Shown here: piece after piece, positions 8,474 to 32,051 of the stretch
How positions within the stretch are numbered: the stretch's first letter is position 1
How the letters are laid out: each line of letters begins with the position of its first letter
Program-made: the position numbers and the translations under genes
The notes under the pieces: model-generated
What the model was told of the DNA's origin: nothing
Seen by the model: only the letters and a program-made list of their open reading frames with translations
Database searches by the model: none
Assembly: GCA_020722945.1 (NCBI GenBank)
Contig: DYJV01000008.1
Coordinates: 1-51,236, forward strand
Source: Candidatus Methylomirabilis sp.
Lineage (GTDB): Bacteria > DYJV01
Length of the DNA stretch: 51,236 bases
Direction: 5' to 3'

Positions 8474-9295
8474 TTACCATATAGCAGAGATCGCAAATGT
8501 ATAGGTAGCTCCCAAAGAGGTGTCTTTACCATATATTTCAGGGGTGTATTCAAATTCTACTGCAATATTTTTGTAAACTTTATAACCGATTGTAATATCA
8601 AGTTTTCCAAGATCGTATTCAGAGGATAATGTAGGATTACCTGAAAAATCAAACTCTTTATCACCATTACCCATTCCAAGTATTCCGTCAAGTTTGACCC
8701 TTCCGTATAACTTCTTTGTAAAATCACCACCTATCTCTATAAGATATCTCAATTCATCAGCAGGTGCTTCTGCTCTCCACCTATAACCCATCTCAAAATT
8801 TGCATAACCGGGTATTATTGGCCAAAGGGATGTGCCAAATAGAGCTCTCAACTCAAAATCGTATTGACCATTGCCAAGTGCCAAAGTATCATCTTTGTCG
8901 TATGCTTCAGGAATTTTTAAAACTCCTTGTAGAGAAAAAACACCTTTTTCACCTTTGAATATATTGTATTTAACCCCAAGATCAATATCTCCAATGCCAT
9001 TATTATCCATTTTGGTATAATCATCCTCTTTCTTTATATCTTTGTAATACAATGAAGTAATGGCAGTTAGTTTGTCAGTTATACCATATTCTGCATAAAG
9101 ACTCATATTGTAATCCTGAAAATCACCATCAAACTTGTAATCTTCACTTCCACCACCACTCAAAAACTCTTTATCTGAGTAGTAGTAGTTAAACCCTAAT
9201 CTTGTATATAATTTGTTTTTCTCCATACTCCATGCACCAGCAAAAAGATTCCCTGAAACAAAGAGTGCCACTATTATAAAAATTACTCTTCTCAA
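8474..9295 (-). CDS. Outer-membrane beta-barrel-like transporter/porin-type protein
   Basis: Signal peptide (MRRVIFIIVALFVSGNLFAGA), alternating amphipathic strands, terminal aromatic residue (IW). Confidence 0.6.
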   Translation of the reverse strand: MRRVIFIIVALFVSGNLFAGAWSMEKNKLYTRLGFNYYYSDKEFLSGGGSEDYKFDGDFQDYNMSLYAEYGITDKLTAITSLYYKDIKKEDDYTKMDNNGIGDIDLGVKYNIFKGEKGVFSLQGVLKIPEAYDKDDTLALGNGQYDFELRALFGTSLWPIIPGYANFEMGYRWRAEAPADELRYLIEIGGDFTKKLYGRVKLDGILGMGNGDKEFDFSGNPTLSSEYDLGKLDITIGYKVYKNIAVEFEYTPEIYGKDTSLGATYTFAISAIW

Positions 9296-9352
9296 TTTTT
9301 ACCTCCTCTTTTTTATACTATAAAATCAATTTGTTCCAAACTTTGAAAAAAT

Positions 9353-10708
9353 TTAGTAAGAAAGTGCATTTAATACACTCTGTTTCAACACTTCAAGCAT
9401 AAATTTACCCATTTCAGACTTACTCATATTAGGCCAATTTGTTTTGTTGGCAGGGTTAGTATCCCACAATAATTTTGCATTTGCGATCTGCAATTCACTT
9501 ATACTCTGCATATACCTATCAATAAAAAATTCAGGATTATGGGCTACTACTGCAACCTTGTTAGAATCAATAGGCACAACAAATAGCGACAGTGGAATTG
9601 ATGCAAATCTCCAGATGCCAAGATTCATGAAAAAAGGGTGCATATAAGATTCGAAAAACTGCATCTGATAGATACTTCCGATAGAAGTATCAAACTTAGA
9701 AAGTTGATAAGGGTCATTGTAAGCATGTATAACACTATTTTTTACAAGGGTAAGCATAGAATCACTTTTGTTAGGGATTACCCAATCCTTGATAACAACT
9801 TTTTTGCCATCTTTTAAAATCCATCCATCCTTTATTGCTGAAAATCTTGGGAAAGAGAGTATCCCTTTAAATATTGCGGATTCATCGTATAGGTATTTGT
9901 AATCCTCTATGCTGCCACCAACACTGTATGAATGCTGACTATTACCCCCTCCAAAAATGATTACATCACCTTTTTTTATGGCATTAGCAACAGCTTCAAT
10001 ATTTTGAAATTTCTTACCTGATCCAACTTCAACTTCATTTAATACTACAAGTGGCAAGTGAGTTGATGAAAATGATACTTTTGAGTCAGGCATCACAGGA
10101 TCAAATAAAGCATCAGGAAATGCTTGATTAACAGCATTCATTAAAACCAATCTTGCATTTTCAAGCAATCCCTTATTTTTACTACTCAAAAGATTAAATT
10201 GAGAGATATAACTAATTGGATCAACCAAACATATATGGATTATTTTCAACCCAAACTGTTCAGATGGAAGAAATATAAATCTAAAAGGTAGAGTAACAAC
10301 AGATTCAGGGGATACCTTGAGTAGCTCCTCCTCTACTTTAGACATACGAACTTCAAGGACTCTTACCCCCGAACTTTCAGCTATTTTCACAAGAAAATTA
10401 CCATAAGAGTATTTTGAAGTAGGGCCTATAGGAGAAGCTAAAATAGTATTTGTAGCAAATGTGGTAAATGAAGTGTCTTTTGAGAGGTAATCACCAAGCT
10501 TTTTAACAGCACTATCTATCTCCTTTATAACATTGCTGTCATATTCAACCTTAAACCTTGCAGTATCAATAAGGTCATAAGCATCAGTATAACTGTAATG
10601 CAAAGGTGGTAGTTTCTTCACTTCAAACCCAGCATAGCTAAATTGGAAAAAGATAATTAAATTGAAAAAGATAAAGATAGAAATGAGAAGTTTGTTGCTA
10701 TTTTTCAT
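9353..10708 (-). CDS. Hypothetical exported protein
   Basis: 451-aa ORF with N-terminal signal sequence, inside the operon; family not recognised. Confidence 0.75.
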   Translation of the reverse strand: MKNSNKLLISIFIFFNLIIFFQFSYAGFEVKKLPPLHYSYTDAYDLIDTARFKVEYDSNVIKEIDSAVKKLGDYLSKDTSFTTFATNTILASPIGPTSKYSYGNFLVKIAESSGVRVLEVRMSKVEEELLKVSPESVVTLPFRFIFLPSEQFGLKIIHICLVDPISYISQFNLLSSKNKGLLENARLVLMNAVNQAFPDALFDPVMPDSKVSFSSTHLPLVVLNEVEVGSGKKFQNIEAVANAIKKGDVIIFGGGNSQHSYSVGGSIEDYKYLYDESAIFKGILSFPRFSAIKDGWILKDGKKVVIKDWVIPNKSDSMLTLVKNSVIHAYNDPYQLSKFDTSIGSIYQMQFFESYMHPFFMNLGIWRFASIPLSLFVVPIDSNKVAVVAHNPEFFIDRYMQSISELQIANAKLLWDTNPANKTNWPNMSKSEMGKFMLEVLKQSVLNALSY

Positions 10709-10720
10709 AAGATCTCCCTT

Positions 10721-11410
10721 CTAATTAGAATAGTTTAGTTTTAGCATAAATATAGTTTTTAATATTTTGTAACCAGCCAAAATTGTCCCTTTTACTGTCC
10801 CACTTATTTTAGATCTCCCTATCCTCTTTCTATAACAAACAGGAATCTCTTTTACCTTTAAATTATTTAATATAGCTTTTATTTGCATCTCAACAGTCCA
10901 GCCATAATCTTTATCTTTCATATCAAGCTGGAGCAATTTATTAAATTTTATTGCTCTGAAAGGACCTAAATCAGTATATCTAAAGTTCCAGAAGGCATCG
11001 ATTACTCTTGTAGCAAGCCAATTTCCAAAAATTGACTGTGGTGTAAGAAACTGTTTATCCATCCTTGCTCCAACTACAAAATCAAAACCATCTTCCAAAA
11101 TAGGCTTTAGCAACTTATCAATCTCTTCAGGGTAATCACTGTAATCACCATCAAGAAATACTACTATATCTGTTTCAGGAAGGTTCTCTTTTATAAAGTT
11201 GATACCTTTCATACATGCAGATCCATAACCTCTCCTTTTCTCAAAAAGAAGTGTAGCTGAAGTTTTGGAAACTATTTGAGGGGTAAGGTCAACACTCCCA
11301 TTATCGACAACTATTTTATTTTTGAATATTTCAGGAATATCATTCAAAACTTTTATAATTGAACCCTCTTCATTAAGAACAGGAATAATAATAGCAACTT
11401 TATTTCCCAT
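10721..11410 (-). CDS. Family 2 glycosyltransferase, dolichyl/polyprenyl-phosphate mannose synthase-like
   Basis: IIPVLNEEGSI, VVDNGSVDLT, FLDGDYSDYPEEI, DLGPFRAI motifs. Confidence 0.8.
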   Translation of the reverse strand: MGNKVAIIIPVLNEEGSIIKVLNDIPEIFKNKIVVDNGSVDLTPQIVSKTSATLLFEKRRGYGSACMKGINFIKENLPETDIVVFLDGDYSDYPEEIDKLLKPILEDGFDFVVGARMDKQFLTPQSIFGNWLATRVIDAFWNFRYTDLGPFRAIKFNKLLQLDMKDKDYGWTVEMQIKAILNNLKVKEIPVCYRKRIGRSKISGTVKGTILAGYKILKTIFMLKLNYSN

Positions 11411-11775
11411 TCTTTTGCATATAAATAAAAAAAGCTATATTGTCCAATTCCTTTTTTTTATTGACTTAAAGAGTTTTATAAATAATTTTTATGATAACTC
11501 TTTATCTTTTGATAACCACTATCTAAAATAAAATAGAGTAAAAAATAGGGTTAAAAATCTTTTTTATACAAAAAAGGTAAATTAGTGGGGTAAGTTTTAT
11601 TATAAGTTGATTTGCTTGATTATAAATGCTATTTTATATCTCTTTTACAGAGATACAGATCCACTTTAGATAGGCAGATAAAGATAAGAGTAAATTCAGA
11701 TATATTTATCTCTATACAATTTTTGAGAAAAAATTTGATTAGGAGTTTACCCATTTATATGATACGATTGGGAGC

Positions 11776-13068
11776 TTGCAAAAATATTTCATATCTACAA
11801 TATTTTTTATAATGGGAAAGAGATTTTTTCTACCTTTTGTAATAGCTGTATATCTTTTAAGTTACCTTTATCTCTTTTTTTCCAATAGTTTTAAATACAA
11901 TTTTTTTATTTTGAGCTATACAGCTACTATTTTGTCAGTTTTATACTTTGTTTTACTGAGAAATTCTCTCAATAGGAACATTATCTTACTCCTCACGCTA
12001 CTTACTCTCACTTTAAAATTTTTATTTATATTCAAAGAACCACTTTTGTCAGATGATATTTATAGGTATTTATGGGAGGGGAAGATTCTTTTAAATGGTT
12101 TTAATCCTTACACATTCCCACCTAATTCAGAGGCTCTCTCCTTTTTAAGGGATAATATCTATATCAACGTCAACCATAAAGAGTTTACAGCAATTTATCC
12201 CCCATTTAATCTTATTTTAAATGCTCTTATTGTAAAACTTCACTACTCTGTAACCTTTTACAAATTTACTCTTTTTCTTTTTGATACAGCTGCTTTTTTT
12301 ACTGTTATTGGGGCTCTTCATTTATCAAAAAGACCATTGAGAGAATCATTGATATATTTTTTAAATCCCCTTACCACTCTTGAAATTGAATGGAGTGGCC
12401 ATAACGATATTATAATGCTGCTGATGATGTCTATAGGATATCTCTTTCTTTTAAAGAAGAGAGATTCCATCTCCTCTCTCCTCTTTTACACTTTGGCATT
12501 ATTATCAAAATTTGTATACATTATCTTTATCCCATTTTTTGCCAATTCTTACAAAAAAATTAATATTTTAATAATTATTGCTCTTTTATTTTACATCCCC
12601 TTCATTTATGGGAAAGAACATATTTTTGACTCTCTTATAATGTATTCAAAAAGCTGGGAATTTAATAGCAGCCTCTTCTCTCTTTTAAAAATTTTTATAT
12701 CAGATAACTTCATTGTCAGGAAAGGACTCCTTCTTCTTTATTTTGTAATGTATGTATACATCTGTTTAAATGTGAAAAGTTTGGATAGAAAGTTGTTGTT
12801 CCTTACTCTTGCATTGATACTTGTATCTCCTACTGTCCATCCATGGTATGGACTCTGGTTGTTACCATTGTTAACTTTAAGTTTTATAAAAGAGATATTT
12901 ATATTTACTCTCCTTCTACCTATCTCCTATCAGATACTTGAAAGATATTTTGCCTCAGGAGTATGGAATGAGAATTTTTACTACACTACTATTGTATATT
13001 CACCTATAGGATACTTTTTAATTTCAAGATTTTTTCAAAAAATCAACAAATCTATCGAAAATAGATAA
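11776..13068 (+). CDS. Polytopic membrane glycosyltransferase, GT87/mannosyltransferase-like; start uncertain (11776 TTG or 11812 ATG)
   Basis: Many TM helices; LLSDDIYRYLWEGKILLNGFNPYTFPP and YPPF motifs of polyprenol-phosphate-dependent mannosyltransferases. Confidence 0.65.
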   Translation: MQKYFISTIFFIMGKRFFLPFVIAVYLLSYLYLFFSNSFKYNFFILSYTATILSVLYFVLLRNSLNRNIILLLTLLTLTLKFLFIFKEPLLSDDIYRYLWEGKILLNGFNPYTFPPNSEALSFLRDNIYINVNHKEFTAIYPPFNLILNALIVKLHYSVTFYKFTLFLFDTAAFFTVIGALHLSKRPLRESLIYFLNPLTTLEIEWSGHNDIIMLLMMSIGYLFLLKKRDSISSLLFYTLALLSKFVYIIFIPFFANSYKKINILIIIALLFYIPFIYGKEHIFDSLIMYSKSWEFNSSLFSLLKIFISDNFIVRKGLLLLYFVMYVYICLNVKSLDRKLLFLTLALILVSPTVHPWYGLWLLPLLTLSFIKEIFIFTLLLPISYQILERYFASGVWNENFYYTTIVYSPIGYFLISRFFQKINKSIENR

Positions 13069-13737: not shown

Positions 13738-15399
13738 TTAGAAGCATACTTTTGCTATTTTATACTTTTTGGTCTCATCTCTTGTATAATCTGGTAAAAG
13801 TATTGGTGAGCGTCTATCTGTAGTTATACCAGAATTTTTTAGTTCCTCTTCATACTTTTTGACATGATCAAGTGTCAATTTTGATGAGCTGTAGTCAATC
13901 CCTTTTGAATACTCACCTGCACTCTTGCCTGCTCTTCTCCCAAAAACAGTAATATCAAGCAGAGAGTTACCCATTAGTCTATTTTCACCATGGACACCTC
14001 CACTTGCCTCCCCTGCAACATAAAGACCGGGAACATTAGTTTTTGTGGTGTCTTCAATTTTGAGCCCACCATTCTGATAGTGAAGAGTTGGAAATACAAG
14101 CATAGGCTCTTTACTTATATCGATATCGTATCTTTTGAACTGAATATATTTTGCAGGAAGCTCTTTCTTTACTGTCCCACTACCCTCAAGCTCATCTATC
14201 ATAGGTGAATCTAACCATACACCTATACGTCCTGTCGGGGTAACTATTCCAAACCCTCTCTCTATACACTCACGGATTATACATGCAGACTCAACATCTC
14301 TTGGCTCCCTCTCAAATACAAACTGCTCACCTTTTATATTGAGAAGATTTGCTCCGAGACCCCTGACCTTTTCTGTAATAAGGAGACCTATATTCTGCTC
14401 AGGAAAAGCAACCCCTGTAGGGTGATACTGTGTGGAGTGCATAAAAGAAAATGGAACGCCAGCTCTGTAACCTATCACAAGACCATCAGCAGTTGCACCA
14501 TAGTGATTGGTTGTGGCAAATCCTTGAATATGTAATCTACCATAACCACCTGTTGAAATAACAATAGATTTTGCTTTTACAACAAAAAATTCCTCTGTCT
14601 CCATATTAAACAAAACAGCACCAGCTGCCCTACCATTTTCGTCAAGCAGTATCTCAACGGCGGGGGAGAATTCGAGGACATCTATATCATTTCTCCTGTT
14701 CCTTACTTCATCTCTTAAAACTCTCATAATCTCAGAACCTGTCATATCACCAGAAGAGTGCATCCTTTTTCGGCATGTCCCTCCACCATGTCTTGTTTTG
14801 AGTGAACCTTTATCAGTTTTGTCAAACATCATTCCAAGTTTTTCAAGCCATTGGATAACCAAAGGTGCATCATTGACCAAAGCTGCAACTAAATTTGGAT
14901 CATTGGTAAAATGACCACCACCCATAACATCAAGGTAATGATAATATGGTGAATCGGGCTTTCTCGTTGCTCCCTGAATACCACCCTCTGCCATTACAGT
15001 ATTTGCATCTCCATGTCTAAGCTTTGTAGCAATAATTACTTTACAACCCTTCTCCTGTGCAATCAGAGCAGCAGAACTTCCAGCTCCACCACCACCAATT
15101 ACAAGAACATCTGTCTCATATTTTACAAAATCTTCCAATTTCATGTCAGTTGGAACCATCGAATGCGATTCAAGAAGATCAACAAATTCAGCAGGATAAA
15201 CTTCACCTTTACTTGGACCAATCTTTACAGCTCTACGACCTTCAGCTTTGTAATCAGGGTGAAATTTATTCAAAACATCCTCTCTCTGTTGTAATGTGAG
15301 AGGTGTGTAAAATTGCCCATTTTTTGCTTTATCAACCCTTGCTGGTCTTGATGCTTCAACCCTTTTTATTAGCTCTTTCATTTCAGCAGTGTAACTCAT
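13738..15399 (-). CDS. FAD-binding fumarate reductase/succinate dehydrogenase-type flavoprotein subunit (TfrA-like)
   Basis: DVLVIGGGGAGSSAALIA, HSTQYHPTG, GLYVAGEASGGVHGENRLMGNSLLD motifs. Confidence 0.85.
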   Translation of the reverse strand: MSYTAEMKELIKRVEASRPARVDKAKNGQFYTPLTLQQREDVLNKFHPDYKAEGRRAVKIGPSKGEVYPAEFVDLLESHSMVPTDMKLEDFVKYETDVLVIGGGGAGSSAALIAQEKGCKVIIATKLRHGDANTVMAEGGIQGATRKPDSPYYHYLDVMGGGHFTNDPNLVAALVNDAPLVIQWLEKLGMMFDKTDKGSLKTRHGGGTCRKRMHSSGDMTGSEIMRVLRDEVRNRRNDIDVLEFSPAVEILLDENGRAAGAVLFNMETEEFFVVKAKSIVISTGGYGRLHIQGFATTNHYGATADGLVIGYRAGVPFSFMHSTQYHPTGVAFPEQNIGLLITEKVRGLGANLLNIKGEQFVFEREPRDVESACIIRECIERGFGIVTPTGRIGVWLDSPMIDELEGSGTVKKELPAKYIQFKRYDIDISKEPMLVFPTLHYQNGGLKIEDTTKTNVPGLYVAGEASGGVHGENRLMGNSLLDITVFGRRAGKSAGEYSKGIDYSSSKLTLDHVKKYEEELKNSGITTDRRSPILLPDYTRDETKKYKIAKVCF

Positions 15400-15418: not shown

Positions 15419-16213
15419 TTATAGATATTGAGTTTCTTTTGGCATCCATGTGCCATCATGTATTGCTGGCTCTATCTCTCTCTCTACATATCTCTTTTTA
15501 AGCTCTTCAAGAGGTAATTTTTTGAGCTCATCAAGAAATTTTTCGTATTTACCTGAATTAACATCTTCTCCCCTTTCAGGTAAAAATTCATCATTAGGTA
15601 AAATATATTTCCCATACAATCTTCTGCAGAGCTGAGCAACATGGTAATGCTGTATCTGTGCAGGACACCTTGAAGAGCACAAACCACACTGTATGCAATC
15701 AAAAGACATTTTGGCAACTTTTTCAACATCACCCCTCATTGCAGCATTGATATACCCCATAACGTCTATATCCATAGGACATGCTTTTGTGCATGTATTG
15801 CAACCTACACACTTTAAAACTTCAGGGTAGAGAGCCATTACTGTTTCTGCCGATGCATCAACCTCTTCTATATTATACACTGACCTATTTGCAGGAAAGA
15901 ATGGAACTTGAGCAATATACATATTCTCCTGAACAACTGTCTGGCATGCTAAACCAAAATATATTTTGTAATCTCCATATATTCTATAAACTGTCCCACA
16001 AGCTCCACAAATACCACCTCTGCATCCACAGGCACGGATAAATTTGTAACCTGCATATTCGATCGCTTTCTGTATGGTAATGGTTTCTGGGACTAAATAT
16101 TTCTTACCCATAATATAAATAGGTATCTCTTTTGAGCCTTTTGGGAGTATAACCCTATCCCCTGTGGCAATATTTATCTTTTGATTTGTATTTTCACTCA
16201 TATCTCCCTCCAA
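15419..16213 (-). CDS. 2Fe-2S/4Fe-4S iron-sulfur subunit of fumarate reductase/succinate dehydrogenase type (TfrB N-terminal-like)
   Basis: CGCRGGICGACG 2Fe-2S motif; CVGCNTCTKACP and CIQCGLCSSRCP 4Fe-4S motifs; directly upstream of the flavoprotein gene. Confidence 0.8.
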   Translation of the reverse strand: MEGDMSENTNQKINIATGDRVILPKGSKEIPIYIMGKKYLVPETITIQKAIEYAGYKFIRACGCRGGICGACGTVYRIYGDYKIYFGLACQTVVQENMYIAQVPFFPANRSVYNIEEVDASAETVMALYPEVLKCVGCNTCTKACPMDIDVMGYINAAMRGDVEKVAKMSFDCIQCGLCSSRCPAQIQHYHVAQLCRRLYGKYILPNDEFLPERGEDVNSGKYEKFLDELKKLPLEELKKRYVEREIEPAIHDGTWMPKETQYL

Positions 16214-16216
16214 TAA

Positions 16217-17332
16217 TTAGTTTGTATCAGCTTCTATAATAAACTCATTTTCCCTGAATGTTACTACCGGAGCAGGGGTATCAAAACTCTCTCCTGCTTT
16301 ATATTCAAGCATCTTTTGAACCGATTCCGCAGAACTTATAAAGAGTGTTGCAACATCAATATCATTTGGACATGCACTTGAACATAAACCACAAGCAATA
16401 CATGAACTTGACATATGGTTTAACCTTGTAAGGTGGAACATCGTAGTGTTTTCAAGCATTCTTAAAGCACCCTTTCTCTCTGCCCACCCTGATATTGTAT
16501 CTGCTGAATGGTCAAATGTAGGACTTCTGAAAACACACTCTTTACAGTAGCATATTGGACATGCAACCATACAATTGTGACATCTTATACATTTTGAAAG
16601 CAGATTTTTCAAACCATCAATAGAGTTAACACTCTTTTTAAATTCTGCCAACTTATCTGCTTTGCTCTTAATCCTCTCTGATACAACTTTTGAGATAGTG
16701 GACTCTCTTTTGGACAAATCAACACTTTGAGATTCAACAGTATCAAACAACTTTGAACCCTCTTTCAAAGTAAATATAATTCCACCATCTCCACCGTAAT
16801 AACCTATCACAGCATCTGGAAGTTTTGGGTCAATGGATGGTGTCTCACAGATAGTGCAGCTTTTTCTGAATGAGAAACCATCAGCAGATTTGAGATCACC
16901 GTTAGAGTGAATTTTAGGGTAATTTTCAACATAATCAGGATTGTTAGTAATAAGTTTCTCAAAATCGCTAACCTCATATGTCCCACTACAATCAGTTGCA
17001 ATAAGAAAACAGTTGTCAAGGTCTATCTGCTTAAATTTGGTGAGCTCCACAATAGCCTTTATCTCACAAGGTTTTGCAATAATCATCAATTTTTTAGAAG
17101 ATTTTGTAAAGGTGAGATTCTTTGCAATCCTACCTGTCTGAACAGGTATTACAGGAGCAAATGGGTTAATATTGTCAAGCATACTCTCAGAGCTTATCAA
17201 TCCCTGAATATAGTTACTCTTGGAGCTGTTTAAGACAGGGGCAAGAACCTCATCAATTTTGCCAGATTTCATAAGATTTTTCAGGTAATCTCTGAAATCT
17301 TTAATTCCATTAAATTTACAGGAAATATTCAT
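16217..17332 (-). CDS. FrhB/FdhB-like (coenzyme F420 hydrogenase/dehydrogenase beta-type) 4Fe-4S dicluster protein
   Basis: KPCEIKAIVELTKF...IATDCSGTYE resembles FrhB; CIRCHNCMVACP and CIACGLCSSACP motifs. Confidence 0.7.
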   Translation of the reverse strand: MNISCKFNGIKDFRDYLKNLMKSGKIDEVLAPVLNSSKSNYIQGLISSESMLDNINPFAPVIPVQTGRIAKNLTFTKSSKKLMIIAKPCEIKAIVELTKFKQIDLDNCFLIATDCSGTYEVSDFEKLITNNPDYVENYPKIHSNGDLKSADGFSFRKSCTICETPSIDPKLPDAVIGYYGGDGGIIFTLKEGSKLFDTVESQSVDLSKRESTISKVVSERIKSKADKLAEFKKSVNSIDGLKNLLSKCIRCHNCMVACPICYCKECVFRSPTFDHSADTISGWAERKGALRMLENTTMFHLTRLNHMSSSCIACGLCSSACPNDIDVATLFISSAESVQKMLEYKAGESFDTPAPVVTFRENEFIIEADTN

Positions 17333-17368: not shown

Positions 17369-17797
17369 TTATGCATCCCATGCAGATTTTAAAGTTGAGG
17401 GACCTTTATCTTTTAAAAATTTTGTAAATTCGGTGACTGTCTCTGCAAAAAGTCTCCCCTCACTTGCACTGATCCATCTGAGCCACACTCTATCATCTTC
17501 AAGACCAAAGTTTTTTAATATATTTTTTAGTATTGCAACTCTTCTTCTCGCTTTATAATTCCCTGACTGATAATGACAGTCCCCCGGATGGCAACCACCA
17601 ATAAGAACACCATCAGCACCATCAAGAAGAGATTTCAGAACATAGACAACATCAATTGCCCCTGAACACATAAGATGGACAACTCTTATATTAGGTGGAT
17701 ACTGCTGTCTTGTTGTCCCCGCAAGATCTGCACCTGTGTATGTGCACCAGTGACACAAAAAAGCTATTATTTTTGGTTCAAACTTTTCTTCAGCCAT
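17369..17797 (-). CDS. MvhD-like hydrogenase/heterodisulfide reductase-associated iron-sulfur subunit
   Basis: CHWCTYTGADLAGTTRQQYPPNIRVVHLMCSGAID...DGVLIGGCHPGDCHYQSGN. Confidence 0.9.
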   Translation of the reverse strand: MAEEKFEPKIIAFLCHWCTYTGADLAGTTRQQYPPNIRVVHLMCSGAIDVVYVLKSLLDGADGVLIGGCHPGDCHYQSGNYKARRRVAILKNILKNFGLEDDRVWLRWISASEGRLFAETVTEFTKFLKDKGPSTLKSAWDA

Positions 17798-17824: not shown

Positions 17825-20821
17825 TTATGAAATAAGGTAATCTATCATACCAAGAACCTGTCCCTTTTCAAAACCATACTGCTGTGCTGCACCATTTGGA
17901 CAGCTCATCACACAAGCACCACAACTTTCACAAACTGTTTCAAAAACTTTGGCTATTTTAAGTGTAGGATCTATAACTCTTGCACTATATGGGCATACCT
18001 CAACACATATCCCACAACCACTGCAAAATCTGCTAATAACATAAGATCTATGCTCCATCGATACAAGCTCTCTCTGATTGAGGAATACAGCACCCCTTGC
18101 AGCAGCAGCCAAACCTTGAGAGACAGCTTCGTCAATATGTTTGGGAGCATGACACAAACCAGCCATAAATATATCTTTCTGGTTAAATATTATATTACCA
18201 CCCTTTTTATTTGACTCTTCAAAGAAACCATATTTATCAAGAGGTAAATTAAAAATTTGTGAAAGATTGATATTTTGGTTGGGCTCGATACCACTACTTA
18301 AAACAACCATATCAGGTGTAGAGTCAATATCTTTATTGAGAATTGGATCTCTATAATTTATATAAAGTTTACCATTTGAGACTTTTACTTGAGGTTTACT
18401 ATCAGGTTGATAAGGGATAAAAATAACACCCTTACTCCTTGCTTCTCTATAATAATCTTCATAGAAACCGTAACTCCTTATATCACGATAAAGAACTGTA
18501 ATATCAATATTTTTGAATTTATCTTTCAGTTTGAGGGCATTTTTGATGGCATGTGAGCAACAAACCCTGCTACAATACTCCCTTTTGCCAACCTCTCTTG
18601 ATTCAACACACTGGATCATTACTACTTTTTTGATATCACTAATATCATTATTTGAAATTTTATTTTCAAGCTCTACTTGTGTAATAATTTTGTCAGATTC
18701 TGAATATCCGTAAGATTTTGGCTTAACCTCTTTTCCACCAGTTGCAATAATTGTGATACCATGCTCTATAATAAATTCGGAATCATTAGATTTTATCAAA
18801 CTTCTTCTATTACCTACACTACCCTCTGAAGAGATAACTTCAGAAGATGTAAATATTTTGATATTGCTACTGTTTTTTACAGAAGTTATCAAACTCTGTA
18901 ACTTACTCTTGATATCTGCACCCCTTAATGTATAGTGGGATGTCAATAGCTTTCCACCAAGCTCTTCACTCTTTTCAACAAGAGATACGTCAAAACCCTG
19001 ATTTGCAAGATTAAGTGCAGATGTAAGCCCTGCTGCTCCTCCTCCAATAACAAGAGCAGAATCTTTTATAATGTTTTTTACTTCAGCTCCTGAACAATTT
19101 TTGAGAAGTTTAAAAACTGCAGCTTTAAGAAGAGTAATAGATTTATCAGAAAATAATTTTTTATCTAAAGAAGCAGCAAATATGCACTGCTCTCTGAGAT
19201 TAACAAATTCAAAATTAAGGAGTGAATAACCTTCATCTTTAAAACTTTTGAAGTAAATTTCCATATCCCTTGCAGAACATCCAGCAACAACAACTCTGTC
19301 AAGAGCATTATCTCCCATAATTTTCTTTACTTGTGAAATATTAGATGAGTTACATAAATTGTCAATAGTGCCAGTCCATTCAACTTCTTTTATGTTTTTG
19401 AGCTCCTTGAATATACGGTCAATTTCAAGTGATGTATCAAGGATATTGCCACATCTGCATATCAAGACACCTACTCTCGGAATCTGATAATCGTTGGGAG
19501 TCACAACTGCAGGAGTAAATTTATCACTTTTAACTCTTTTGTTTGACTCAAGAACTTTTGCAGCAACAGCAAGTCCATCTGTGGTAGTCTCCGGAATATC
19601 TTTGGGTGCAGTGAATGCCCCTGCTACATAGATACCTTTTACATTTGTTACCATAGGGTCAAATTCGTCACTTTCAGCAAAAAAGTATTTATTGGTAGAT
19701 ATTTTTGATATTTCTATTAATTTACGGGTCTCACTATTTTGAAAAAAACCGAGAGATAAAACAGCAATATCAAAATCTCTCTCTTTTAATTCACCATTTT
19801 TATAGTATGTTACTCTGATATTTTTATCTTGACCATGCTCTTTTAGTGTAGAGAGATGGCATCTTATAAATTTGATTCCATATTCATCTTTTGCTTTATT
19901 GTAATACTCCTCATACCCCTTCCCAAAAGCTCTTATATCCATATAAAAAAAGACAACTTCACAATCGGGCAGCTGCTTTTTGGTAAAGATCGCCTGCTTC
20001 AGTGCAAACATACAACATATTGAAGAGCAGTAAGGATTACCACTCTTTCTTATATCCCTTGACCCTACACATTGTAAAAAAGCAACACTCTTAGGTGAAG
20101 TAGAGTCCGATAACTTTATAGGGACACCACTTGTAGGACCAGAAGGGCTTATCAATCTCTCGTATTGGACAGAAGAGAGGACATTTTTGTTGTAACCAAA
20201 TCCAAACTCCTCTTTGATCCCACCCTTTACAGCTTCAAAACCCGGTGTAAATATTATATCAGAGACATCGAGCAAAAGCTCTTTGTCACTATTTGGTGAA
20301 AGATTTATTGCATTTACAGGGCATATTTCAACACATTTGTTACACTTGGTGCAGTTGACGGTATCAAGGAAATAAGATTTTTTTACTGCTTTGGGGTAAA
20401 ATTTGTAGACAGCTTTTCGTTTCTCAACACCTTCACCAAATTCGTTGTCAACAGTAACAGGGCAGACCTCTTCACATTTCCCACAGTCAATACAGAGTTG
20501 GCTATCAACAGGGTTTGATTTTATCTTTAATTTTACTTTAAAATTTCCCTGCTCCCCATCTATCTCAACAACAGATGAACTTGGTATAAAATTTATGTTG
20601 CTCCTGCCTGAACACTCAATGAATGGGCAGTAAGCAGGTGGTTTGGGTGATAAAAAACACACCCCACAAGAATTCGTAGGGAATTGATTGTCAAGTAAAG
20701 GGAAATACCCACCCATAGAAGGCTTGGAATCAATCAAATTTACCTTTATCCCACTATCTGCAAGAGCAAGGGAAGCAGACATCCCTGCAAAACCACTACC
20801 TACAATTAAAATCTCCTTCAT
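17825..20821 (-). CDS. Tandem HdrA-like protein with two FAD-binding modules and multiple 4Fe-4S motifs
   Basis: N-terminal ILIVGSGFAGMSAS and second ALVIGGGAAGLTSALNLA; two copies of the SRD/SRE...YCS.(I/V)CC motif; C-terminal CSGCGICVEVCP and CESCGACVMSCP. Confidence 0.85.
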   Translation of the reverse strand: MKEILIVGSGFAGMSASLALADSGIKVNLIDSKPSMGGYFPLLDNQFPTNSCGVCFLSPKPPAYCPFIECSGRSNINFIPSSSVVEIDGEQGNFKVKLKIKSNPVDSQLCIDCGKCEEVCPVTVDNEFGEGVEKRKAVYKFYPKAVKKSYFLDTVNCTKCNKCVEICPVNAINLSPNSDKELLLDVSDIIFTPGFEAVKGGIKEEFGFGYNKNVLSSVQYERLISPSGPTSGVPIKLSDSTSPKSVAFLQCVGSRDIRKSGNPYCSSICCMFALKQAIFTKKQLPDCEVVFFYMDIRAFGKGYEEYYNKAKDEYGIKFIRCHLSTLKEHGQDKNIRVTYYKNGELKERDFDIAVLSLGFFQNSETRKLIEISKISTNKYFFAESDEFDPMVTNVKGIYVAGAFTAPKDIPETTTDGLAVAAKVLESNKRVKSDKFTPAVVTPNDYQIPRVGVLICRCGNILDTSLEIDRIFKELKNIKEVEWTGTIDNLCNSSNISQVKKIMGDNALDRVVVAGCSARDMEIYFKSFKDEGYSLLNFEFVNLREQCIFAASLDKKLFSDKSITLLKAAVFKLLKNCSGAEVKNIIKDSALVIGGGAAGLTSALNLANQGFDVSLVEKSEELGGKLLTSHYTLRGADIKSKLQSLITSVKNSSNIKIFTSSEVISSEGSVGNRRSLIKSNDSEFIIEHGITIIATGGKEVKPKSYGYSESDKIITQVELENKISNNDISDIKKVVMIQCVESREVGKREYCSRVCCSHAIKNALKLKDKFKNIDITVLYRDIRSYGFYEDYYREARSKGVIFIPYQPDSKPQVKVSNGKLYINYRDPILNKDIDSTPDMVVLSSGIEPNQNINLSQIFNLPLDKYGFFEESNKKGGNIIFNQKDIFMAGLCHAPKHIDEAVSQGLAAAARGAVFLNQRELVSMEHRSYVISRFCSGCGICVEVCPYSARVIDPTLKIAKVFETVCESCGACVMSCPNGAAQQYGFEKGQVLGMIDYLIS

Positions 20822-20822
20822 C

Positions 20823-21662
20823 CTATATACCCTTTACCAATTGTGATGGATCAATAATATGTTTTGAAAACCATTTGGAAGTCCCTTCAAGTCCAAAAGC
20901 TTCACCAATTAACTCTGTAAAATATAGGACAGGCAAAGGCTCTTCAAGATTTTGCTTTGTATCGATATTTGCCTGACATAATCCGCACGATGTAATTATA
21001 CAATCTGCACCAGCTTCCTTTGCATAGCTGATAAGCTTGTTTATTAGTTTGGAAGCTAAAATAGGGTTTGTAAGAGCAGCATCACCACCACAACAATCTA
21101 CTCTACATGGCCATTCAAGGACATTAACACCCACTGCTTTCATAATTTCATCCATTATGCGAGGATTTTCAGGATTATCAAATTCAACAACTTCACTCGG
21201 TCTTAATATTGCACAACCGTAATAACAAACTGCATTTATATGAGTAAGTGGTTTGGTAACCCTCTCTTTAATTGTTTTAACTCCTATCTCCCTAAAAATA
21301 TCAAGAATATACTTTATTTTGATACTCCCTTTATATTTAAAATCTAAAATACTCTCTATTTGAGGCTTTTTTTTAGGATCTTTTAGACTCCATTCAGATT
21401 TTTTTAGGCTGCTAAAACAACCAGCACAAGGAACAAGTAAATCTTTTCCAACCTCTTCTGCAATTTTAATATTCCTCGCAGAAAGGTTGATTACCAGATC
21501 TTCACTAATATTTTTGGTAGGTCCCGAACCACAACAGTTCCAATCTTCTATCTCTTCAGTTTCAACACCTAAAATATCAAAAACAGCTTTTATAGACTTT
21601 TCATATTCAATAGCTGTTGAATGTGCTGTGCACCCTGGATAATATGATAATTTCATAAGCAT
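20823..21662 (-). CDS. HdrB-like CCG-domain subunit (second copy in operon)
   Basis: YYPGCTAHST, WNCCGSGPT, VDCCGGDAAL motifs. Confidence 0.85.
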   Translation of the reverse strand: MLMKLSYYPGCTAHSTAIEYEKSIKAVFDILGVETEEIEDWNCCGSGPTKNISEDLVINLSARNIKIAEEVGKDLLVPCAGCFSSLKKSEWSLKDPKKKPQIESILDFKYKGSIKIKYILDIFREIGVKTIKERVTKPLTHINAVCYYGCAILRPSEVVEFDNPENPRIMDEIMKAVGVNVLEWPCRVDCCGGDAALTNPILASKLINKLISYAKEAGADCIITSCGLCQANIDTKQNLEEPLPVLYFTELIGEAFGLEGTSKWFSKHIIDPSQLVKGI

Positions 21663-21676
21663 CCCATTCCTATTTA

Positions 21677-22219
21677 TTAGATTTCAGGAGTAATCTGTGT
21701 AAAAATATCTTTTATTTTCTGAGTATCTTTTATCTTTTTGGGGAAAAGTGGTAACTTCCCTCTTGTAAAAAGCTTGATACCGGTTTTGATGTCGCTAATT
21801 GCAGCTTTACTAAAAAAATCTTTTGTTTTCAGTTTGTAAGATATCAGGAAGGTTGCTTCATGGACTCTTCCAAAATTTTTTATACTCTCAACAAATGACC
21901 TATTAAAAGCATAACCAACTTTATCTGCTATTTCAACATTCTCCTCTATAGCCATCCTTCGTAATGTCCCCATAAGTTTGGCAATTTTGATATCGTTGGG
22001 ACAACGCTCTCCACAAGTCTCACACGATACGCAGAGCCATATAGCTTCACTCCTCAACAACTCATCTTTGCTGCCATACTGAATAGCTCTTATAACTTCA
22101 TTAGGCTTTATCTCCATAAATTCAGCAGTTGGACAACCTGCTGTGCATTTTTTACATTGGTAACATAAATTAAAATTCTCACCTGACCTTTTTTGAACTT
22201 CTAAAGTAAAATCATTCAT
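21677..22219 (-). CDS. HdrC-like 4Fe-4S subunit (second copy in operon)
   Basis: CYQCKKCTAGCP and CVSCETCGERCP motifs. Confidence 0.85.
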   Translation of the reverse strand: MNDFTLEVQKRSGENFNLCYQCKKCTAGCPTAEFMEIKPNEVIRAIQYGSKDELLRSEAIWLCVSCETCGERCPNDIKIAKLMGTLRRMAIEENVEIADKVGYAFNRSFVESIKNFGRVHEATFLISYKLKTKDFFSKAAISDIKTGIKLFTRGKLPLFPKKIKDTQKIKDIFTQITPEI

Positions 22220-25572: not shown

Positions 25573-26445
25573 CTACAAAAGACCTTTCTCTTTTAAGATA
25601 GGGGTAGGATCCACAAAATTCCTCTCAAATTCAAGAACTTTAGGGTCAAGACCAAGTGCAAGACCTAATAATTGTGTAAAATAAACTACCGGAATTTTCT
25701 TTAATTCAGGGTGGATAGAAGATAAAATATTTTGTCTATCATCGAGATTGAATTGGCATAAAGGACAGGAAGTTACTATAATATCAGCATTATTTTTTTC
25801 TGCACTATTTACTATTTCGTAAGAACACCTATTGGCAGTATCAGGATTATTCATAACTTGAAATGCTCCACAACACTCATTTCTATATGGGAAATAGACC
25901 GGCTCACAACCAAGAGTTTTCAGAAAATCTTCAAAGATAGATGGATTTTCAGGATTATCAAGCTGTATCTCTTTGTGCGGTCTTAAAAGTAAACAACCGT
26001 AATATGTAGCAACTTTGAGATCTTTTAGTGGTTTTGTGATTTTCTCTCTGATAGTTTCAAAACCAACAATATTTTTAAGTATTTCAAGGTAATGGACAAC
26101 ATCGACATTACCATCGTAATCTCTCTCTGTAAATTGGTTGAGCTTGTATCTCCTCTCTTCATCTGTTTTGATTACATAATTGGTCCTCTTCAAAACATTA
26201 AAACATACTGAACAGAGGGTAACAAGTTTATCGTAATTGGCTAATTGGGTGTCTGCCAAAACTCTTGAACATGAAGAGAGTCCCATATGATAATCGTTGA
26301 CAAGTGGGAATGATGCTCCACAACATGTCCATTTATCAAGCTCTTTTAATTCAAAACCGAGTTTTTTGGCTGATTCCCTGCCAGCATGGTCAAGATGTTT
26401 AGCTTTTGTGTATAAAGTGCATCCCGGGAAATAAGCAAGATCCAT
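25573..26445 (-). CDS. HdrB-like CCG-domain subunit (first copy in operon)
   Basis: AYFPGCTLYT, WTCCGASFP, NECCGAFQVM motifs. Confidence 0.85.
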   Translation of the reverse strand: MDLAYFPGCTLYTKAKHLDHAGRESAKKLGFELKELDKWTCCGASFPLVNDYHMGLSSCSRVLADTQLANYDKLVTLCSVCFNVLKRTNYVIKTDEERRYKLNQFTERDYDGNVDVVHYLEILKNIVGFETIREKITKPLKDLKVATYYGCLLLRPHKEIQLDNPENPSIFEDFLKTLGCEPVYFPYRNECCGAFQVMNNPDTANRCSYEIVNSAEKNNADIIVTSCPLCQFNLDDRQNILSSIHPELKKIPVVYFTQLLGLALGLDPKVLEFERNFVDPTPILKEKGLL

Positions 26446-26464: not shown

Positions 26465-26875
26465 TTAGAGTGATGTAAATTTTCTGTAACAACTAATAAA
26501 AGCTATCTGAGGGGCTCTTTTGCGGTAATCTTCATCAAAATCTTTCACTTCAACATGACTACCTTCACTACGGAGCTTTATCATTCTACAAGCTTCTGCA
26601 ATCTTTGCAAAATCAACACCCTTTGGACATCTATTAAAACACATTATACAAGATGCACATATCCAGATAGTTTTGCTATTTAGAACTTTATCATACATCC
26701 CAAGCTGGAGATATCTGATAGCTTCAGATGGCATAATATCCATCTCAGAAACTGCCGGACATCCAGCAGAACATTTCCCACATTGGTAACATTTGTATAC
26801 ATTTTCTCCACTAATCTCTTCTATCTTCTCAATAATCTCTGAATTTATATTCTCTTTTCTGATTATACTCTTCAT
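26465..26875 (-). CDS. HdrC-like 4Fe-4S subunit (first copy in operon)
   Basis: CYQCGKCSAGCP and CASCIMCFNRCP; start moved from ORF-track 26938 to ATG 26875 (MKSIIRKEN), preceded by a GGGGG RBS-like stretch and not overlapping the upstream gene. Confidence 0.85.
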   Translation of the reverse strand: MKSIIRKENINSEIIEKIEEISGENVYKCYQCGKCSAGCPAVSEMDIMPSEAIRYLQLGMYDKVLNSKTIWICASCIMCFNRCPKGVDFAKIAEACRMIKLRSEGSHVEVKDFDEDYRKRAPQIAFISCYRKFTSL

Positions 26876-26876
26876 T

Positions 26877-27437
26877 TTACCCCCGTATTTCGAACTTTTT
26901 TCTTCCAATTTCGTAAAGATCATTGCCAAAAATATCATTTATAACAACAACAGGAAATTTCTCAACAGTAAGTTTCCTGATAGCCTCAGGACCGAGATCC
27001 TCATAAGCTATCACCTCTGATGTTTTGATACACTCACTTATCAAAGCACCTGCTCCACCTACAGCTGCAAAATAAACTGCTTTAAAATTTTTTATAGCAT
27101 CCTTTACTTCAGAAGATCTACTCCCCTTCCCAATCATACCTTTGAGCCCTTTTTCTATTAAAATAGGTGAATACGCATCCATCCTATAACTTGTAGTAGG
27201 ACCTGCAGAACCTATAACTTTACCCGGCTTGGGCGGAGTAGGACCAACAAAATATATAATCTGACCTTTAATATCAAAAGGGAGAGCTTTACCATCATTG
27301 ATAAGGTCAACCAATCTTTTGTGTGCAGCATCTCTGCCAGTATAAATAGTCCCTGTAATAAGGAGATTATCACCAGCTTTGAGGGAGGTGAGGATATCAT
27401 CTGACATTGGTGCTGAAATTTCTCTTATATTCTCCAT
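26877..27437 (-). CDS. Class I fumarate hydratase, beta/C-terminal subunit
   Basis: LITGTIYTGRDAAHKRL, YFVGPTPPKPGKVIGSAGPTTSYRMD signature. Confidence 0.9.
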   Translation of the reverse strand: MENIREISAPMSDDILTSLKAGDNLLITGTIYTGRDAAHKRLVDLINDGKALPFDIKGQIIYFVGPTPPKPGKVIGSAGPTTSYRMDAYSPILIEKGLKGMIGKGSRSSEVKDAIKNFKAVYFAAVGGAGALISECIKTSEVIAYEDLGPEAIRKLTVEKFPVVVINDIFGNDLYEIGRKKFEIRG

Positions 27438-27455: not shown

Positions 27456-28295
27456 CTAAAGAGTAATCTCTTTATGTCTTGCAGCATGACATTGGAAATT
27501 GATTGCTACAGGGAGAGAAGCAATATGGCAAGGCTCAAGCTTTATATGGACAGCAAGACAGTAAACTCTGCCACCCAAACCTTGAGGACCCATACCAAGA
27601 TTGTTTATCTTTACAAGCAACTCTTTCTCAACTTTATCAAGCTCAGGATCATCATTACTACTACCAATTTCTCTAAGGAGAGCCTCTTTTGATAAAATAG
27701 CACTCCTTTCAAAATTACCACCAATACCAACTCCTATTATCACAGGTGGACAAGGATTGGAACCTGCAAAACTTGCCCTATCAACAATAATTCTCTTTAT
27801 ACCTTCCAAACCATCAGAAGGTTTGAGCATCTGCTGAAGGCTCATATTTTCACTGCCACCACCCTTTGGAGCAACAATTATCTTAACTTTATCACCAGAA
27901 ACTATCTTTGTATGAATAATAGCAGGTGTGTTGTCCCCTGTATTTTTCCTTGTGAAGGGGTTACACATAGATTTTCGAAGGTAGCCATCCCTGTATCCTT
28001 CAATAACGCCTTTATTAATCGCTTCATAAAGATCTCCACCTATAAAATGAACATCCTGACCAATCTCAAGAAATACAACCGCAACTCCAGTGTCTTGGCA
28101 TATAGGCATCTGCTCAGAAGATGCTATCTCAGCATTTTTGAGGAGTATATTGAGAATATCTTTACCTACTTCAGACTCTTCTATCTCAAGACCTTTTCTA
28201 AAAGCCTTAATTACATCACTTCCAAGATAGTAGTTTGCATCTATAGATAATGTTTTAATAGATTCGGTAATTTTAGCTACATTTATCTCTCTCAT
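27456..28295 (-). CDS. Class I fumarate hydratase, alpha/N-terminal subunit
   Basis: PICQDTGVAVVFLEIGQD, KGGGSENMS, CPPVIIGVGIGGNFE; likely start ATG 28295 (MREINVAK). Confidence 0.9.
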   Translation of the reverse strand: MREINVAKITESIKTLSIDANYYLGSDVIKAFRKGLEIEESEVGKDILNILLKNAEIASSEQMPICQDTGVAVVFLEIGQDVHFIGGDLYEAINKGVIEGYRDGYLRKSMCNPFTRKNTGDNTPAIIHTKIVSGDKVKIIVAPKGGGSENMSLQQMLKPSDGLEGIKRIIVDRASFAGSNPCPPVIIGVGIGGNFERSAILSKEALLREIGSSNDDPELDKVEKELLVKINNLGMGPQGLGGRVYCLAVHIKLEPCHIASLPVAINFQCHAARHKEITL

Positions 28296-28758
28296 TTTAT
28301 CCACCAAAACCTTAGTTTTAGATTGTATACAATATAAAATTCTTAAATGCAACAAAAATTTTGTTTGTTTTAATAAAGTTTAAAACTATTTGACAATACT
28401 AAATATACCATACAAAATCACTCTTAATAAAGATAAAAAAATATTTAGGAAAATTAATATTTAACCTTGTTCCATTCTAAAAAAATTAGAAGATTTTTCA
28501 AAATATTTAACTGATATTTTGGATATTCTCCAATCTGTTACTTTTAACTTTAAAGGGCTTCACTTTTTGAGACATAGAAACTCCATCTGTGAAAAATATG
28601 ATTATTGAGGTTATCCCCTCACCTATAAACAATTCAAATTAAATCTATTGAATTTTTAAATCTCAAATGTTAATAAATTATCTCTTTACAATATATTCAA
28701 TTTTTTTACTCAGAGAAATAGCAAATTTAAAAATATACAGAGATAAAAAGGAGTTTTT

Positions 28759-31367: not shown

Positions 31368-32051
31368 TCATTTATTGTATTGTTTGAAATAATTATCAAT
31401 TTCTTGTCTTAATTCAATTCCTATCCGTTCAAAAATATTAAGTAAATCTTGATAAGCACCTTCTCCTCCGATAAAGTCCCAAAACTCATTTGCAACTTTC
31501 AGTTCATTAGCAAGGTCTAACATTCCTCTCATTGTCCAGCGATTGTAAGGCTGTGGTTCATAAGGATTATAAGGAATCGCAATGAGTGATTGAACATTTT
31601 CTGTAGGGTTTGTTGCAAGTATTGCTGCAACCCATTCTAAAAGTGTCCGCTTAAATTCTTTGAAACCACCAGCATTTGGTTTTGCGGTCTTAATATCAAA
31701 AAGATAAACTATTCCATTACGGGAAACGAGTTTAATGTCAACTTTAGTCAGCTTGACGGTTTTCATTTCTCCTTGTCTACAAACGTTTCTGATTGCCTCG
31801 ATTTCATCTGGTTTATTTGGAGATGAATTGGCTGTTGCTAATTTATCCATAATATTTTGAATAACTTTATGTGCTTCTGATGAAATTTTTGTTCCCGCTG
31901 TTTGTTGTGAAGTGGCACTTGTAAAATTTGATGAGGCAAGTGCTAATGCAACAGGTTCAAAAATAGTTGTACCAAAATTTGTATTTAAAGAATGTATGAA
32001 AGAAAATAAAGCCATTCTGTCCTTGCCAAGTAATCTTGTGTGAAATGGCAT
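31368..32051 (-). CDS. TdeIII/MjaII-like type II restriction endonuclease
   Basis: KVDIKLVSRNGIVYLFDIKTAKPNAGGFKEFKRTLLEW (PD-(D/E)XK-type core) and overall resemblance to the TdeIII family; from memory, no search run. Confidence 0.65.
   Translation of the reverse strand: MPFHTRLLGKDRMALFSFIHSLNTNFGTTIFEPVALALASSNFTSATSQQTAGTKISSEAHKVIQNIMDKLATANSSPNKPDEIEAIRNVCRQGEMKTVKLTKVDIKLVSRNGIVYLFDIKTAKPNAGGFKEFKRTLLEWVAAILATNPTENVQSLIAIPYNPYEPQPYNRWTMRGMLDLANELKVANEFWDFIGGEGAYQDLLNIFERIGIELRQEIDNYFKQYNK

Follow-up and report, generated by a model that had tools for sequence, protein, structure and literature searches.

The working form of HdrA is an obligate dimer, and heterodimers have been proposed by Chadwick et al. 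for HdrAs that are fused or paired and whose losses complement each other (PMC9012536). Fused HdrAs are known in ANME (anaerobic methanotrophic archaea) and in the MetFV-HdrABC-MvhD complex of Moorella thermoacetica (PMC9012536), for whose tandem HdrA two flavin adenine dinucleotides (FADs) were measured and one was proposed to bifurcate (PMC5861303); they have also been surveyed across Archaea (PMC11237513). Here we describe a tandem HdrA of 998 residues encoded in a 13-gene operon with fumarase and fumarate reductase genes, in a 51,236-nucleotide stretch of DNA from Candidatus Methylomirabilis sp. (the window; contig DYJV01000008.1, positions 1 to 51,236, assembly GCA_020722945.1). The operon probably encodes a soluble, HdrA-linked, electron-bifurcating fumarate reductase, a description in which we infer the direction and the bifurcation. 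The tandem HdrA, the logic of the asymmetric dimer and the two FADs are already published for ANME and Moorella; what is new relative to the open literature that we searched is the setting, fumarase-HdrCB-HdrA(x2)-HdrCB-tandem HdrA-MvhD-FdhB-like-FrdB-FrdA. We found no description there of an HdrA-linked or bifurcating fumarase-fumarate reductase operon, subscription papers lying outside the search, and the nearest system is a cluster from Culexarchaeia (PMC9723716).

Comparison with described systems

The locus resembles the Moorella complex in its fused HdrA modules, in the complementary distribution of the N-domain and Cys197 (numbering of the HdrA in PDB entry 5ODC) and in its HdrB, HdrC and MvhD (PMC5861303, PMC9012536), and MetFV-type tandems are among its relatives in the tandem HdrA tree. 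The output of the Moorella enzyme, however, is methylene-tetrahydrofolate (methylene-THF) via MetFV, whereas the window encodes FrdAB and fumarase, together with an FdhB-like subunit, an additional HdrCB and an additional HdrA dimer; NCBIfam and Pfam identified no MetF or MetV among the operon genes. Complementary loss and proposed asymmetric heterodimers, often with FdhB-like genes, also characterise the HdrA3/HdrA4 fusions and the HdrA5+6 and 12+13 pairs of ANME (PMC9012536). These differ in being archaeal, in occurring with FdhA-like genes and in having the N-domain in the first half (PMC9012536) rather than the second. With the methanogen HdrABC-MvhAGD and HdrABC-FdhAB complexes (5ODC, 7BKB, 8RVU) the operon shares the HdrA fold, the cluster ligands, the CCG sites of HdrB, MvhD and FdhB, but those complexes have a symmetric HdrA homodimer, H2 or formate as donor and heterodisulfide as acceptor.

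Thiol:fumarate reductase TfrAB has counterparts in the intact catalytic residues of FrdA and in the presence of FrdB and a CCG protein; the fusion of FrdB with a CCG domain that marks TfrAB is absent, the CCG domain here being a separate HdrB gene, and HdrA modules are added. A tandem HdrA is also found in the BamBCDEF/AOR-Hdr clusters, and an earlier note on this DNA had suggested BamE-like tandems for comparison. Those proteins are partnered with a tungsten AOR and an HdrD-like protein and form a separate supported clade; the 998-aa protein has neither gene adjacent to it and lies in a different supported clade. The window genome does have a second tandem HdrA, 36% identical, at locus L013 (G000:C141, 470-9047), accompanied by tungsten-AOR-like, HdrD-like and MvhD-like proteins in a BamBCDEF-like order. 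The Culexarchaeia Ehe cluster (PMC9723716) places an SdhA gene beside bifurcating Hdr genes (HdrA2B2C2), but it is a membrane [NiFe]-hydrogenase cluster from archaea, with no fumarase-Frd operon described.

The two halves of the tandem HdrA

NCBIfam HdrA2 (NF040770) matches the 998-aa protein with 714.6 bits in three stretches. Solved HdrA chains match it in a phmmer search of PDB sequences with E-values down to 7e-133, and the alignment to one solved HdrA is broken into three: the N-domain of that chain lies on residues 448-626, the core on 3-421 and the C-terminal part on 821-997. All of the top 11 PDB matches found by Foldseek for an AlphaFold2 model of the protein (predicted local distance difference test 86.4; predicted template modelling score, pTM, 0.87) are HdrA, with a TM(target) of 0.92 and a root-mean-square deviation of 2.2 for one half. 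The fusion of two HdrAs proposed in the earlier note, from two FAD motifs and two SRx...YCSxxCC copies, is borne out: the 998-aa open reading frame has two intact FAD motifs (GxGxxG at residues 8-13 and 593-598) and two cluster sites (CxxSRx...YCSxxCC at residues 251-270 and 738-755).

Both halves, and the separate 447-aa and 662-aa HdrAs of the operon, were aligned to the HdrA of 5ODC, whose sequence was read off PDB search alignments with a numbering consistent with Cys197. Cluster names such as HA3 follow the usage for that structure. In the N-half the alignment finds C55 (equivalent to Cys197), eight cysteines of the inserted ferredoxin and four HA3-type cysteines, with neither N-domain nor C-terminal ferredoxin. 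The C-half has the N-domain cysteines C455/C457, C490 and C515, four HA3-type cysteines and eight cysteines of the C-terminal ferredoxin, and is without Cys197 and the inserted ferredoxin. Alignment of each half to a solved HdrA, as the earlier note had advised, thus finds the FAD motif and the HA3-type cluster site intact in both. The asymmetry that it had suspected lies in the division of the N-domain, Cys197, inserted ferredoxin and C-terminal ferredoxin between the halves, each of which keeps FAD and the HdrC-side cluster. On this distribution the 998-aa protein is predicted to be a complete asymmetric HdrA dimer in one chain, in which the N-domain cluster of the C-half, to judge from the homologous 5ODC dimer, would receive its fourth ligand, Cys55, from the N-half. 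With one C-terminal ferredoxin as the entry (C-half) and one inserted ferredoxin as the exit (N-half), there would be one complete low-potential wire per tandem.

The same ligands recur in a set of 92 tandem HdrAs from many bacterial and archaeal phyla, in which every ligand position is retained in 83-92 proteins and nearly all positions in 89-92. The Cys197 position is Cys or an in-frame TGA (selenocysteine) in all 92; the TGA falls at exactly this codon in more than 10, including L013, where it is a probable selenocysteine, and one solved HdrA also has a non-standard residue (X) here. A degenerate half, named in the earlier note as the finding that would refute its reading, is ruled out for the 998-aa protein by the ligand table and by this conservation, the two halves being complementary.

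Truly degenerate halves occur at L017 (1464-4496) and L018 (8328-11315), two tandem HdrAs whose N-half no longer has the HA3-type ligands; L017 comes from the only other genome sampled from the phylum of the window. Right behind the Cys197-type motif the window protein carries an insertion of six residues that brings in an extra Cys (C64; window 20614-20660), the loop being of low confidence in the model, as are residues 53-63 around Cys55. Similar insertions are found in L015 and L021, the latter (8667-12212) a tandem HdrA of 1181 aa with a further N-half insertion of ~130 residues that has, as judged by eye, the look of a response-regulator receiver domain.

The 447/662 pair as a test case for the proposed asymmetric dimer

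The separate 447-aa and 662-aa HdrAs carry a split that matches that of the tandem (Table 1), and together would form, on their ligands, its two-gene equivalent. Since HdrA works as an obligate dimer, the four HdrA modules that the earlier note set against only two HdrBC pairs make up two dimers, one fused and one of 447 and 662, with one HdrBC each; the count was right and its framing misleading.

Related operons offer a sequence-only test of the proposed asymmetric heterodimer, namely whether Cys197 is kept or lost together with the N-domain of the partner. At 18 loci a 662-type HdrA occurs singly and HdrB is visible upstream of it; N-domain and Cys197 are both present in 17 of these, and the exception, L039, has a 447-like fragment directly upstream (tblastn). 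Where a 447-type partner without N-domain precedes it, Cys197 of the 662-type protein is gone in 22 of 22 cases, and where the 447-type protein still has its N-domain (L178, L186) Cys197 is retained in the partner in both. This natural test supports the pairing of an N-domain with the Cys197 of the partner. In the tree the 447 and 662 clades are sisters (support 0.996), which suggests a local duplication of a single HdrA as the origin of the pair. That the neighbouring 447 and 662 genes were joined to give the 998-aa protein is rejected, the tandem N-halves forming a group of their own (support 1.0) apart from 447 and 662.

The fumarase-Hdr-fumarate reductase operon and its relatives

The 13 genes are co-directional and span positions 28355 to 13738, no two neighbours being more than 36 nucleotides apart, in the order fumarase alpha, fumarase beta, HdrC1, HdrB1, HdrA447, HdrA662, HdrC2, HdrB2, HdrA998, MvhD, FdhB-like, FrdB, FrdA (Table 1). 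The fumarase and fumarate reductase genes, which the earlier note passed over, are its most important feature. The ligands of a bifurcating HdrABC-MvhD system are intact at the entry (MvhD, C-terminal ferredoxin), at the exit (inserted ferredoxin) and in HdrBC. The FdhB/FrhB-like protein is closest to FdhB chains of HdrABC-Fdh (formate dehydrogenase) complexes. Alignment of FrdA to solved SdhA chains identifies H326, R346, H440 and R474 as the catalytic residues of the fumarate site, and these are retained in 66-67 of 67 sequences. The true start of HdrC1 probably lies downstream of the one listed.

Table 1. Features of the tandem HdrA and of the operon, in window coordinates
Feature	Position	Strand	Basis or remarks
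Tandem HdrA, 998 aa	17825..20821	-	open reading frame, NCBIfam, PDB alignment, ligand table, model
N-half FAD motif GSGFAG (residues 8-13)	20783..20800	-	kept in 92 tandems
Cys55, Cys197 equivalent, predicted by homology to complete the partner's N-domain cluster	20657..20659	-	Cys or Sec 92/92
N-half inserted ferredoxin, 8 Cys (110-167)	20321..20494	-	ligand table vs 5ODC
N-half HA3-type cluster site (C251, C265, C269, C270)	20012..20071	-	ligand table
C-half N-terminal-type cluster domain (C455, C490, C515)	19097..19480	-	conserved 90-91/92
C-half FAD motif GGGAAG (residues 593-598)	19028..19045	-	ligand table, 92 tandems
C-half HA3-type cluster site (C738, C750, C754, C755)	18557..18610	-	92/92
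C-terminal ferredoxin, 8 Cys (933-974)	17900..18025	-	ligand table
Fumarase class I alpha subunit (FumA N-part)	27456..28355	-	Pfam Fumerase 2e-113
Fumarase class I beta subunit	26877..27437	-	Pfam Fumerase_C 2.3e-58
HdrC1, dicluster ferredoxin subunit	26465..26938	-	Pfam Fer4_8 2.5e-10; conserved position in relatives
HdrB1, two complete CCG motifs	25573..26445	-	NCBIfam HdrB/SdhE; 10/10 CCG cysteines invariant in 47 sequences
HdrA, 447 aa	24229..25572	-	Cys197 equivalent (C65), inserted ferredoxin, HA3-type site; lacks N-domain and C-terminal ferredoxin
HdrA, 662 aa	22228..24216	-	N-domain, inserted ferredoxin, HA3-type site, C-terminal ferredoxin; Asp (D201) in place of Cys197
HdrC2	21677..22219	-	NCBIfam CoB_CoM_SS_C 8.7e-22
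HdrB2, two complete CCG motifs	20823..21662	-	NCBIfam CoB_CoM_SS_B 2.1e-51; 10/10 CCG cysteines invariant in 39 sequences
MvhD, electron-entry adaptor	17369..17797	-	Pfam FlpD 2.6e-50
FdhB/FrhB-like subunit, dicluster ferredoxin	16217..17332	-	matches 9t1s_M 4.3e-27, 8rvu_E, 7bkb_E
FrdB/TfrB-N-like subunit, 2Fe-2S and two 4Fe-4S	15419..16213	-	all 12 cluster cysteines kept throughout 66 sequences
FrdA/TfrA-like fumarate reductase flavoprotein, FAD predicted to be non-covalent	13738..15399	-	NCBIfam TfrA 346 bits

The gene order of the window is repeated in Thermodesulfobacteriota bin100102 (L026), Deltaproteobacteria DeMMO6_17 (L027) and K_DeepCast_100m (L028, in which MvhD was not detected), and an extended variant occurs in Chloroflexota (L031, L039). 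FrdB is present in 100 of 395 genomes sampled from the phylum of L026 (E<=1e-40); the neighbourhoods of 60 of these matches were read, which with earlier loci gave 67 loci with FrdB, their gene identities checked by NCBIfam and Pfam. Fumarase is found at 33-34 of them, SucC at 36, malate dehydrogenase at 22 and Kor at 7. The loci form a graded series, from HdrCB-FrdBA only, through (malate dehydrogenase)-fumarase-HdrCB-HdrA-Kor-FrdBA-(SucC) and malate dehydrogenase-fumarase-HdrCB-HdrA-MvhD-p297-ShyB-like-FrdBA-SucC, to the window type, in which the middle position is filled by the tandem HdrA cassette (HdrCB2, 998, MvhD, FdhB-like). Because this position is taken by Kor or MvhD-p297-ShyB-like in the simpler relatives, the cassette looks like an exchangeable electron-entry module, and the SucC, Kor and malate dehydrogenase genes place the system in the malate-to-2-oxoglutarate branch.

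At L161 (59-12269), L164, L170 and L173 malate dehydrogenase, fumarase, HdrCB, HdrA, 2-oxoacid:ferredoxin oxidoreductase, FrdBA and SucC follow in one run, which is the whole reductive tricarboxylic acid (TCA) branch with a built-in Hdr module. L147-L152 have a minimal HdrC-HdrB-FrdB-FrdA operon and no HdrA. The SdhE anchor of methylmenaquinol:fumarate reductase outscores HdrB for the HdrB1 of the window (NCBIfam), and these minimal forms might be quinone-linked.

Proposed mechanism and alternatives

The reading that we favour, and to which we give slightly better than an even chance, is that the tandem, as an asymmetric HdrA dimer, forms one cytoplasmic bifurcating fumarate reductase complex with 447/662, HdrCB1, HdrCB2, MvhD, the FdhB-like subunit and FrdAB. 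The co-encoded fumarase would make fumarate from malate and FrdAB would reduce it to succinate. Electrons would enter via the FdhB-like subunit and MvhD, and the single C-terminal ferredoxin of the tandem would hand them to an HdrA FAD, where pairs would split. One pair would pass through an HA3-type cluster, HdrCB and FrdB/FrdA to fumarate, the other through the shared N-domain/Cys55 cluster and the single inserted ferredoxin to free ferredoxin, which would be used in the fixation of CO2, for example by 2-oxoglutarate synthase and CO dehydrogenase/acetyl-CoA synthase.

NAD(P)H (reduced nicotinamide adenine dinucleotide or its phosphate) would be the most likely donor. Neither CofD (F420 biosynthesis) nor [NiFe] hydrogenase (NiFeSe_Hases) has a match in the window genome (2.51 Mb, estimated 98% complete, 5.8% contamination), which speaks against F420 as carrier and H2 input through Mvh. 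With E0' values of +33 mV for fumarate and -320 mV for NAD (PMC5861303), and -420 to -500 mV for ferredoxin, bifurcation from NADH to fumarate and ferredoxin is computed to be exergonic by about -33 to -49 kJ/mol. The genome has an acetyl-CoA synthase match, several 2-oxoacid oxidoreductase matches and four NuoF-like proteins; citrate synthase (PF00285) has no match in it, and the operon FrdA is its sole match to the FrdA query, with no other close family member found. A reductive branch that makes 2-oxoglutarate with ferredoxin fits the acetyl-CoA synthase, the 2-oxoacid oxidoreductases, the missing citrate synthase match and the single FrdA. A link to sulfate reduction was discarded, DsrA giving only a 19-bit ferredoxin-like match.

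Several points weigh against one bifurcating complex. The operon encodes no NAD(P)H-binding subunit, so that the donor is a guess; there is a single MvhD for two HdrA dimers, which leaves the 447/662 dimer without an entry adaptor of its own. The counts of complementary loss are non-independent events, the 447/662 pair having arisen once or a few times, and co-transcription is not proof of one complex. All CCG cysteines are kept in HdrB1 and HdrB2, which would permit a thiol/disulfide substrate. Such a substrate is central to an alternative that we consider unlikely, in which HdrB1, FrdB and FrdA oxidise a dithiol and reduce fumarate like methanogen Tfr, while the HdrA modules only regenerate the thiol and a soluble thiol takes the place of direct wires. 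It draws on the same intact CCG motifs, on TfrA as the best-scoring family for FrdA, on the resemblance of FrdB and HdrB to the two halves of TfrB (NCBIfam) and on the minimal HdrCB-FrdBA form without HdrA (L147-L152), but 43 of the 67 loci have a 662-type HdrA in one operon with FrdBA, an arrangement that points to a direct link; nor did a pathway for a thiol cofactor turn up, although no search was aimed at one. The separate operation of the tandem HdrA-HdrCB2-MvhD-FdhB-like cassette, as a general bifurcating oxidoreductase merely co-transcribed with fumarate reductase, seems improbable to the same degree. At L029 an HdrD-tandem-MvhD-FdhB-like version stands by itself, with no Frd, the tandem HdrA family extends beyond the operon, and the 998-aa protein is no fusion of its neighbours; on the other hand, many genomes have the cassette embedded in the Hdr-Frd gene order, and tandems from Frd operons make up 6 of the 7 rows of one supported clade (99).

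More doubtful still is a complex running in reverse, oxidising succinate with reduced ferredoxin as the driving force (confurcation) in an oxidative TCA branch. The Kor, SucC and malate dehydrogenase genes in relatives' operons, joined in some by isocitrate dehydrogenase, would suit that direction, yet confurcation to NAD+ would cost about +33 kJ/mol, and the missing citrate synthase match speaks against it. Asn (N133) also stands at the covalent-FAD His position of FrdA in 67 of 67 sequences; this His, as is generally known from E. coli Frd mutants, is needed for efficient succinate oxidation, which its replacement would disfavour. As an elaboration of the bifurcating complex, the 447/662 and 998 dimers could each split electrons, one fumarate driving up to two ferredoxins. 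This is energetically allowed, at about -30 to +1 kJ/mol from NADH, but we think it very unlikely.

If the bifurcating complex that we favour exists, its wiring would possibly let cells recover low-potential electrons from fumarate reduction, which would join crotonyl-CoA, caffeyl-CoA, methylene-THF and heterodisulfide reduction among the ferredoxin-coupled reactions of anaerobes. It would also explain how bacteria that have no quinone-linked Frd can operate a reductive TCA branch and meet the cost of 2-oxoglutarate synthase.

Other observations

HdrA proteins of ~1500 aa that adjoin or contain a tandem HdrA were found at L043, L049, L054 and L104, and possibly carry extra flavoprotein insertions like those reported for ANME-1 HdrA9-11. 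Elsewhere in the window, positions 31368-32051 hold a gene for a TdeIII-type restriction endonuclease (Pfam 3.1e-85).

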